A model generated the notes under the pieces. The model was not told where the DNA came from, searched no databases, and saw only the letters and a list, made by a program, of their open reading frames with translations. The position numbers were made by a program, and so were the translations under genes. A stretch of DNA of 41,207 nucleotides from Gallionella sp. (GTDB lineage: Bacteria; Pseudomonadota; Gammaproteobacteria; Burkholderiales; Gallionellaceae). Location: NCBI GenBank assembly GCA_013044075.1, contig JABEVG010000051.1, positions 1 through 41,207 of the forward strand, in the 5' to 3' direction. Each line of letters starts with the position of its first letter. Within the stretch, counting starts at the first letter, position 1. This document shows positions 23,072-26,562 of the stretch, one piece after another.

Positions 23072-24241
23072 TCACAAGCCGCGCGCCAAATCGTTTTGTA
23101 TATCCACCACCGCTTCCAGTCCCACCGCGATGCGGATCAAACCATCCGTGATCCCTGCCGCCTCCCGTGCTTCGGGTGAGATGCGCGCGTGAGTAGTGCT
23201 GGCCGGGTGCGTGATGGTGGTCTTGGTGTCGCCCAGATTGGCGGTGATAGACAACAGCCTGGTGTGGTCGATCACACGCCACGCCGCCTCTTTTCCGCCC
23301 TTGACTTCGAATGACACGATACCGCCACCGGTCTTTTGCTGACGCATCGCCAGCGCGTGTTGCGGATGCGATGGCAAGCCGGGATAGAAGACCCGCGCCA
23401 CGTTGGGCTGCTTTTCCAACCAGGTCGCCAATGCCAGCGCGTTCGCGCTATGCGCATCCATGCGCAGCTTCAGCGTTTCCATGCCCTTCAAAAATATCCA
23501 CGCATTGAACGCGCTCATGGTCGGTCCGGCGGTGCGCAAAAATCCATACACGCCTTCCAGCAATTTTTTATCGCCCAACACCGCGCCGCCCAGCACGCGA
23601 CCTTGGCCGTCGATGTATTTGGTGGCGGAGTGTATGACGATGTCCGCGCCCAATTCCAAAGGATGCTGCAAGATCGGCGTACAGAAACAGTTGTCCACCG
23701 CCAGCAACGCGCCGCAAGCCTTGGCGACCTTGGCGATAGCCGCGATGTCGGAGATCTCGGTGAGCGGATTGGATGGTGTTTCCAGGAAGAATAATCTGGT
23801 ATTGGGGCGCACCGCCGCCTGCCATGCCTCGACATCGGTGGCGGAAACATAGGTCGTCTCCACGCCGAATTTTTTGATGATGTTGTTGAACAGATTCACG
23901 GTCGCGCCGAACAGACTTTGCGACGCGACGACATGGTCGCCCGCCTTCAATAAACCCATCACGCACGCCAGGATCGCCGCCATACCGGAGGCCGTGGCGA
24001 CGCATTGTTCCGCGCCTTCCAAAGCTGCCAGACGCTCCTCGAACATGGTCACCGTGGGATTGGTGAAGCGCGCGTAAATGTTGCCGGGCTGTTCGCCGAT
24101 GAAGCGCGCGGCGGCCTGTGCCGCATTCTCGAACACGAAGCTGGAAGTCAGGAACATCGCCTCGCTGTGTTCGCCGAACTGGCTGCGTACCGTGCCCGCA
24201 TGCACCGCCAAGGTTTCCGGTTGATAGTTTTCTGCTGACAT
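23072..24241 (-). CDS. metZ: O-succinylhomoserine sulfhydrylase
   Basis: MetZ makes homocysteine from O-succinylhomoserine and sulfide, the direct-sulfhydrylation route to methionine. The protein (389 residues) belongs to the Cys/Met metabolism PLP family, with the PLP lysine at K208 (HSATKYIDGQG), the TSSFVFENAAQAAARF segment and the C-terminal LGDTKTTITHPASTTH loop. In betaproteobacteria metZ normally follows purF. Here a PaiB-like gene stands between them, ending two bases before the metZ ATG and carrying its ribosome binding site (AAAGGAAAT). Both genes lie downstream of a SAM-II-type riboswitch, consistent with methionine feedback. Confidence 0.94.
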   Translation of the reverse strand: MSAENYQPETLAVHAGTVRSQFGEHSEAMFLTSSFVFENAAQAAARFIGEQPGNIYARFTNPTVTMFEERLAALEGAEQCVATASGMAAILACVMGLLKAGDHVVASQSLFGATVNLFNNIIKKFGVETTYVSATDVEAWQAAVRPNTRLFFLETPSNPLTEISDIAAIAKVAKACGALLAVDNCFCTPILQHPLELGADIVIHSATKYIDGQGRVLGGAVLGDKKLLEGVYGFLRTAGPTMSAFNAWIFLKGMETLKLRMDAHSANALALATWLEKQPNVARVFYPGLPSHPQHALAMRQQKTGGGIVSFEVKGGKEAAWRVIDHTRLLSITANLGDTKTTITHPASTTHARISPEAREAAGITDGLIRIAVGLEAVVDIQNDLARGL

Positions 24242-24243
24242 GT

Positions 24244-24861
24244 TTATTTCCTTTCCAAGTTTTTGCGCATGTTGTGCGCGACATCTTTTCCGTACTCGCT
24301 TTGCGATAATCCTGCGATCACATTGCGCTGATCCTGCTCGCTGCGATTCTGGCTCAGTTTGAATTTACCTTCGATTCGCGTCAGCGTGACCTCAAACCCC
24401 ACGATGGCACTGAGCATCTGTTCGCGCATCGTCTGCGTCAATTCAAATTTCCACGGTTGCGGCAACGATCTTTCGTGTTCATCGGTGAGCTGTTGCAATG
24501 TTTTTGCCAACTCGCTTTCAGACAAAATCCGCGCCTTGCCATAGGCATGCACCGCCGTAAAATTCCAGGTCGGCACCACCATCGCATTCGGCTCGTACCA
24601 GGCGGGCGATACGTAAGCATGCGGCCCCTGGAACACCACCAACACCTCGCCACCTGGGAAATCTTGCCACTGCGGATTGTGGCGCGCCATGTGACCGAGC
24701 AATGCGCCATGCGCGCCTATGCTGCTGTCCAACAGCAGCGGCAGATGATTGGCGAACGGCACACCATCGTGCTGCGTGACCAACATGGCAAAGCTGTGGG
24801 TACGCATAAATGCCTGCAGCGTCTGCGTGTCCGTCTCGGCAAAATGTTTCGGAATATACAT
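24244..24861 (-). CDS. PaiB-like FMN-binding protein
   Basis: The product (205 residues) matches the PaiB family annotated as FMN-binding negative transcriptional regulators: a split-barrel flavin-binding fold. It starts with MYIPKHFAE, followed by NHLPLLLD, HMARHNPQW, VVFQGPHAYVSPAWY, VPTWNF and VHAYGKAR, all typical. In Bacillus, PaiB represses sporulation and protease genes, but most members are uncharacterised and may be flavoenzymes. It is co-transcribed with metZ downstream of a SAM-II-like riboswitch, so a role tied to methionine or sulfur metabolism is possible. That link is inference from context only. Confidence 0.88.
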   Translation of the reverse strand: MYIPKHFAETDTQTLQAFMRTHSFAMLVTQHDGVPFANHLPLLLDSSIGAHGALLGHMARHNPQWQDFPGGEVLVVFQGPHAYVSPAWYEPNAMVVPTWNFTAVHAYGKARILSESELAKTLQQLTDEHERSLPQPWKFELTQTMREQMLSAIVGFEVTLTRIEGKFKLSQNRSEQDQRNVIAGLSQSEYGKDVAHNMRKNLERK

Positions 24862-24874
24862 CTGACACCCGTGA

Positions 24875-24908
24875 AATAAAAACCCGGATAGCTTGCGCTA
24901 AACCGGGT
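24875..24908 (-). terminator. Intrinsic terminator of the SAM leader
   Basis: On the minus strand ACCCGG (24908-24903) pairs with CCGGGT (24887-24882). A 4-bp TAGC/GCTA extension is capped by a GCAA tetraloop, and TTTTTATTT follows. It stands between the riboswitch aptamer and the paiB-like start, as expected for an expression platform that stops transcription when ligand is bound. Confidence 0.8.
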
Positions 24909-24967
24909 CTCCCGCGCTTTAGCTGAATTTTTTAGGCGCCCGCAAGCTGATCCTCAAATCGGCGCGG
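24909..24967 (-). promoter_or_regulatory. SAM-II (metA motif) riboswitch aptamer
   Basis: The minus strand shows the SAM-II signature in order: a P1 strand GCGCC, then GATTTGA, GCTTGC, the partner P1 strand GGCGC, an A-rich linker (TAAAAAA), and GCTAAAG near the 3' end. These match the conserved blocks of the metA-motif aptamers (GAUUU, UUGC, AAA, GCUAAA), which fold as an H-type pseudoknot around S-adenosylmethionine. The downstream genes are paiB-like and metZ, a methionine-synthesis gene, which fits the ligand. The class is best known from alphaproteobacteria. Confidence 0.8.
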
Positions 24968-24971
24968 GTGG

Positions 24972-25001
24972 AAACTAGCATCACGCAACACCCACCGTCA
25001 A
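24972..25001 (-). promoter_or_regulatory. Promoter of the SAM-riboswitch leader
   Basis: On the minus strand a TTGACG -35 (25001-24996) is followed after 18 bases by TAGTTT, preceded by TGC as an extended -10. Transcription would start a few bases later, at the 5' edge of the aptamer. It lies in the gap after the purF stop, so metZ can be expressed independently of purF. Confidence 0.5.

Positions 25002-25035: not shown

Positions 25036-26562
<1,527 letters not shown>

Follow-up and report, generated by a model that had tools for sequence, protein, structure and literature searches.

A probable transcription-terminating SAM-II riboswitch ahead of a PaiB-like gene and metZ in Gallionella sp., with a candidate antiterminator exchange

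The SAM-II metA element (RF00521; Corbino 2005, PMC1273637) comprises a P1 stem, a P2 pseudoknot and conserved blocks ahead of a methionine gene, with a promoter a few nucleotides before P1 and a terminator between P2 and the open reading frame. Promoter, aptamer and terminators are described in SAM-II leaders in that paper, and Bordetella is included in its alignment legend. Barrick & Breaker 2007 reported that SAM-II occurs most often with terminators in alpha- and betaproteobacteria, while calling the mechanism experimentally unestablished. As well, Scheuer 2022 (PMC9373788) measured an RNA, about 100 nt long, that derives from the Sinorhizobium meliloti metZ SAM-II leader and was more abundant in high-SAM medium.

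The window analyzed here is a stretch of 41,207 nucleotides from Gallionella sp. (contig JABEVG010000051.1), and it carries a comparable leader on the minus strand between purF and a PaiB-like gene (24874-25001). Similar to the metA element, this leader possesses P1, a predicted P2 pseudoknot, the conserved blocks, a putative promoter shortly before P1, a terminator after P2 and a methionine gene target; it differs in its betaproteobacterial host, in scoring 0.2 bit under the RF00521 cut-off, and in the PaiB-like gene that stands first in the operon. It shares with the S. meliloti riboswitch a SAM-II aptamer before metZ and a predicted terminator, whereas the latter is alphaproteobacterial and the two expression platforms are likened by description only. 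We consider it probable (about 0.85) that a transcription-terminating, OFF-type SAM-II riboswitch controls the PaiB-like/metZ operon. The first-pass annotation had proposed such a terminating version in a betaproteobacterium; its class and its terminator hold, and such a version is not new, because SAM-II leaders with terminators in alpha- and betaproteobacteria were published in 2005-2007 and the switch in the window is therefore of a known type. We regard it as an ordinary but real terminating SAM-II riboswitch, and its interest lies in a candidate antiterminator exchange and in two earlier descriptions that appear to be mis-filed. The aptamer, the hairpin with its U-tract, the gene order and their conservation can be read from the sequence; termination control by this leader is likely, and the AT1/AT2 exchange, a hypothesis with statistical support, stands at about even odds. 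The features of the locus are as follows.

25036..26562, minus strand: purF, upstream neighbor, outside the switch (TIGR01134, 532 bits against a cut-off of 350)
24972..25001, minus strand: putative promoter, read directly, with TTGACG at 25001-24996, an 18-nt spacer and the extended -10 TGC-TAGTTT (TGCTAGTTT) at 24980-24972
24913..24968, minus strand: SAM-II aptamer (RF00521 35.8 bits; model R1, see below, 74.3 bits; P1 covariation in relatives)
24965-24961 with 24940-24936, minus strand: P1, GCGCC with GGCGC, read directly
24960-24954, minus strand: GATTTGA block, read directly
24941..24953, minus strand: candidate antiterminator strand AT2-5', GGAT-C-AGCTTGCG, with one bulged C and including the P2 5' strand; duplex with 24897-24886
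24947-24942 with 24923-24916, minus strand: P2, GCTTGC with GCTAAAGC, read directly
24923-24917, minus strand: GCTAAAG block after the A-rich linker, read directly
24874..24909, minus strand: intrinsic terminator hairpin and U-tract, GACCCGGTTTAGCGCAAGCTATCCGGGTTTTTATTT (hairpin -16.6 kcal/mol; unreported by the stricter consensus scan)
24897..24902, minus strand: candidate antiterminator strand AT1, TTTAGC, terminator 5' arm; 6 bp with GCTAAA (24923-24918) of the P2 3' strand
24886..24897, minus strand: candidate antiterminator strand AT2-3', CGCAAGCTATCC, within the loop and 3' arm of the terminator; could pair with AT2-5'
24244..24861, minus strand: gene of a PaiB-like protein, first in the operon (Pfam PF04299 FMN_bind_2, E 1.2e-60)
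23072..24241, minus strand: metZ, O-succinylhomoserine sulfhydrylase (NCBIfam NF006003, 736.6 bits against a cut-off of 522)

Direct reading of the minus strand recovered all of the elements named in the first-pass annotation, from TTGACG to the coding start, in the order claimed: GCGCC, GATTTGA, a spacer, CAGCTTGC, GGGCGC, an A-rich linker and GCTAAAG, followed by the GC hairpin and U-tract of the proposed terminator platform and by the PaiB-like ATG at 24861. A simple consensus scan reported neither the promoter nor the terminator at the leader, which we suppose is due to the weak -10 (TAGTTT) and to a 2/1 internal loop in the hairpin. Of the 91 loci read in the window's family, 87 have TTGAC within the 60 nt that precede GATTTGA, against 4.2% of random 60-nt windows. 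Folding of the whole leader was no better than that of shuffled sequences (z -1.04). The target operon had been given as a PaiB-like gene followed by metZ, and the PF04299 and NF006003 matches agree with this; metZ lies 2 bases after the PaiB-like gene, whose product had no NCBIfam match at E 0.001. An FMN_bind_2 PaiB-like gene stands between riboswitch and metZ in 7 of the 55 metZ loci read (24244-24861 in the window, and L029, L030, L031, L218, L235 and L250), a placement that suggests a link of this gene to sulfur metabolism.

The SAM-II identity of the leader is near certain. Rfam SAM_alpha (RF00521, full model) matched 24975-24899 with 35.8 bits against a gathering threshold of 36 (E 9.9e-7 in 301 bases), and a window-wide Rfam scan at the gathering threshold was empty because this score falls under it. 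Searched in the 2.2-Mb genome, the same match had an E-value of 1.7e-6 and the next one 1.11, while all 14 control genomes gave some match at E<=10 and none above the cut-off. A second covariance model, R1, which was built from 45 of 134 eligible aptamers, all outside the window's family, matched 24968-24913 with 74.3 bits (E 1.7e-18) and had only this match genome-wide at E<=1; since the R1 rows were gathered via core motifs, its score is high partly by construction. Both models support the class and strand first proposed. Among 49 distinct strand pairs, each of the P1 pairs 1-5 was retained in 44-49 and took several pair types, in a register chosen for maximal pairing, and in alignment A1 98.2% of the P1 cells were paired and two pairs showed double changes. 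The P2 strands can pair in the window, but A1, whose rows were picked by these motifs, shows almost no variation in P2, so its covariation is uninformative. Anti-hemB and sR41 also gave weak local Rfam matches, which we attribute to chance or to a likeness between terminators. SAM is very likely the ligand of the window's aptamer.

SAM_alpha matches were found in 108 of 150 genomes of the window's family at E<=0.01 (50 over the cut-off) and in 139 of 300 genomes of its order that are at least 90% complete (51 over the cut-off), both searches having used stricter filters by which weak matches are lost. The 91 family loci comprise the window and 90 of the 142 listed matches, namely the best 30 and 60 hand-picked ones, so that the weakest are under-represented. 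Their first recognized gene was metZ in 48, paiB followed by metZ in seven, metX in 35 and none in one (near a contig end), that is, metZ or metX lies downstream in 90 of 91. There are two leader types, one per gene, and some genomes (e.g., G010 and G028) carry both. By its NF047916 match (677.6 bits), the metX reference belongs to the succinyl type, in keeping with the substrate of MetZ. The metX leader type of the family is also present in one Gallionella (L129), one Gallionellaceae (L132) and one Sideroxydans (L142) locus, the MetX of the last being 93% identical to that of a genome from the window's family; these loci agree with a betaproteobacterial host in the Gallionellaceae. A MetX homologue was sought twice in the window's own genome and was not found, although SAM-II leaders before metX are frequent in the family; at about 93% completeness, the assembly may simply lack the stretch that carries it.

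The terminator in the window is complementary to both P2 strands, a point missing from the first-pass annotation, and the following exchange can be proposed. Transcription would start just ahead of P1. When SAM is plentiful, it would lock the P2 pseudoknot (GCUUGC with GCUAAAGC), the downstream hairpin would form, transcription would end near 24877, and homocysteine synthesis would be cut. When SAM is scarce, both P2 strands would be free; the GCUAAA strand could then pair with the terminator 5' arm (AT1), and the spacer plus GCUUGCG could pair with the loop and 3' arm of the terminator (AT2). Together these pairings would delay or prevent the terminator and leave the operon open to transcription. 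This is a concrete and mutable model of terminator control by SAM-II. In the window, AT2, GGAU-(C)-AGCUUGCG with CGCAAGCUAUCC, forms 12 bp with one bulge at -19.7 kcal/mol (p 0.00085 against 20,000 permutations that preserve the stem), and AT1, GCUAAA with UUUAGC, closes a local hairpin of -12.1 kcal/mol (p about 0.03). In the predicted fold of the nascent RNA, AT1 is present at lengths of 72-84 nt, while the 3' arm of the terminator is still unfinished, and at 87 nt it gives way to the terminator. The GCAA loop of this terminator could be an ordinary stable tetraloop.

AT1 and AT2 complementarities are enriched in relatives but not universal. Of 196 distinct SAM-II leaders, 148 have a hairpin with a T-run within about 110 nt. 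Duplicate leaders were collapsed for this count and for the spacer and own-versus-swapped counts below (69 distinct of the 91 family leaders in the spacer count), and at least 120 loci were covered by the scan of named genomes. A Watson-Crick run of at least 6 with the terminator was present for AT2 in 57 and for AT1 in 39 of the 148 leaders, against 2.65% and 2.83%, respectively, in permuted terminators that keep the stem pairs and loop bases. Duplex energies reached p<=0.01 in 35 leaders for AT2 and 51 for AT1 (1.5 expected each), 73 having either; among the 118 leaders from outside the family search, four of which are of the family's metX type, the counts were 21 and 32. In the same loci, AT2-type 6-mers occurred in 25 of 83 leader hairpins compared with 16 of 461 other T-run hairpins (by one detector), and AAGC in 33 of 83 compared with 54 of 461; the contrast is conservative, as the control set still contains riboswitch terminators that slipped past the filter, at least two of them (L018 and L075) among its eight strongest hairpins. 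Spacer and terminator also tend to go together in the family, where GGAT spacers face ATCC in 6 of 6 cases and GGAA spacers face TTCC in 17, ATCC in five and AACC in two of 24. Fisher's test on the 28 TTCC/ATCC cases among 37 metZ leaders (two with AACC and seven with other spacers left out) gave p 0.0012, uncorrected for kinship. For the family's metZ leaders, none of 3,000 shuffles did as well as the own pairs, and for metX the advantage of own over swapped pairs was marginal (p 0.054); in 59 distinct leaders with AAGC the own spacer matched at 1.24 of 3 positions against 0.92 when swapped (0 of 5,000 as good).

The rival with the most in its favor accepts SAM-II and gives it another route, in which SAM-bound P2 merely stabilizes the terminator or slows the polymerase, while stem composition and common tetraloops would produce the complementarity incidentally; we hold this possible, though somewhat doubtful. 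It would account for the 48 of 148 leaders with neither AT1 nor AT2 complementarity at 5 bp or more, for the near lack of enrichment of loops ending in AA, which AT2 would favor (12 of 83 against 45 of 461, one detector), and for the weak effect outside the family, where own pairs gained only slightly over swapped ones (-12.42 against -12.07, p 0.006) and very strong own pairs were not in excess (14 of 109 observed, 14.06 expected). It would also suit the nested equilibrium fold without SAM, which prefers the terminator (-35.5 kcal/mol, against -27.9 with AT2 forced), so that antitermination would have to be kinetic or to work through a pseudoknot, which lies beyond nested-fold scoring. However, permutation nulls that retain stem pairs and loop bases were exceeded many-fold, and although the folded loops in the family differ widely, 22 of its 31 distinct metX leaders and 34 of its 37 distinct metZ leaders keep AAGC in the terminator, which argues for the exchange between P2 and the terminator.

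Other readings dispute the riboswitch itself or its ligand. That the leader is a chance resemblance or an ordinary purF terminator is hardly credible: it lies just downstream of purF and scores below the Rfam threshold, but the E-value with R1, the single match in the genome and the metZ or metX genes downstream in nearly all family loci speak against this. A SAM-II-like aptamer with a changed ligand, such as SAH, is very improbable here; SAM-I variants are known to switch ligand (to spermidine; PMC10853860), and variant SAM-II copies with CAACTTGC exist in L292 and as second copies in L070, L076 and L083, whereas the window keeps its core blocks intact and the targets are metZ and metX. We give equally little credence to the conserved transcript being an antisense or trans-acting small RNA, Bp2_287 (RF02424), which Khoo 2012 (PMC3521395) reported as RT-PCR validated and which is modeled, in the same purF-metZ gap and on the same sequence, as an sRNA on the opposite strand. 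RF02424 does match the plus strand of the window, at 24.5 bits, below its cut-off of 70. However, in all 30 loci tested, out of 42 listed matches, it lies opposite a SAM-II aptamer (27 by motif and three more by R1) and in none on the same strand, Rfam SAM_alpha being opposite it in 14 of 20 loci scanned; its 5' end is an A-run and a hairpin, that is, the terminator reversed, and the conserved TTGAC is on the riboswitch strand. The cDNA of Khoo 2012 was primed with oligo(dT)18, the terms 'strand-specific' and 'opposite strand' are absent from its main text, and its own authors raised the idea of a cis-acting element for methionine metabolism. Hence, with the riboswitch reading retained, RF02424 appears to be SAM-II relatives entered as a small RNA of the opposite strand, which indicates that a public RNA family is modeled on the wrong strand.

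A similar case is the 'metXZ' RNA, which Leyn 2014 (PMC4239095) described as new before metXW or metZ in betaproteobacteria, in a report where SAM_alpha is given only for Rhizobiales and Rhodobacterales. Like the SAM-II leaders analyzed here, it precedes metXW or metZ, has a pseudoknot and a terminator, and occurs in Methylophilales, Nitrosospira and Burkholderia, and an antiterminator from conserved GC-rich regions was speculated for it, as in the AT1/AT2 model; it differs in being presented as a new element rather than SAM-II, with no ligand proposed, and in being said to be single-copy. RF00521 matched the metZ leaders of Novimethylophilus (L099, 36.9 bits) and Nitrosospira (L114, 32.1 bits). 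In each of the four Paraburkholderia genomes searched, R1 located two copies. One, at 46.5-48.8 bits, lies between purF and metZ; the other, before metX, is weaker (28.6-30.6 bits) and has about 40 nt in place of the 12 in the model. Rfam gave nothing at E<=1 in these four metX leaders. By position, genes, taxa and described anatomy, the metXZ element thus appears to be SAM-II, which gives it, after none was proposed in 2014, a likely ligand in SAM. Within the open-licence literature, a search listed no paper that links RF02424 to SAM-II. We propose tentatively, at slightly less than even weight, that betaproteobacterial terminating SAM-II riboswitches use a four-strand exchange, with P2 and the terminator formed in the presence of SAM (off) and AT1 and AT2 without it (on), and that the metXZ element and RF02424 belong to one SAM-II lineage, which hairpins in linker and spacer partly hide from Rfam.

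Burkholderia-type metZ leaders (Burkholderia stagnalis, Caballeronia and Paraburkholderia) carry a hairpin in the P1-P2 linker. None of the five scanned had a SAM_alpha match at E<=1, and RF02424 scored 96-201 bits on their opposite strand, while R1 recovered all eight such loci given to it (L067, L147, L155, L164, L171, L193, L277 and L278), matching only the first half in L067 and L278 (33.7 bits), where the rest lies beyond a long insert. Linker and spacer hairpins thus suggest why SAM_alpha overlooks these copies. The linker hairpin, with a core net 3 to about 40 nt longer, was seen in L277 (3787), L278 (3726), L067 (1537), L085, L094, L096, L122 and L184.

Tandem SAM-II aptamers, of which 44 examples have already been published (PMC9481103), were observed in L070, L076 and L083, with 78-114 nt between the copies containing a terminator-like hairpin, and by motif also in L109 and L199. 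Variant SAM-II-like copies, with ACTTGC or GATTTAA in place of GCTTGC or GATTTGA, are present in L292 and L293 (at 1501-1556) and as the second copies of the three tandems; those in L292 and L293 do not precede metX, metZ or purF. These variants had no Rfam match at E<=1, and a changed ligand is possible for them.

A dispersed repeat of about 48-60 nt is located inside the terminator apical loop, just downstream of the aptamer, in L217, L220, L223 and L256; it has 5-29 matches per genome in four genomes, and both terminator arms and the AAGCT strand are kept. Finally, L074, L077 and L079 each have an SAH riboswitch (RF01057, about 60 bits) no more than about 1.5 kb away from the SAM-II leader.
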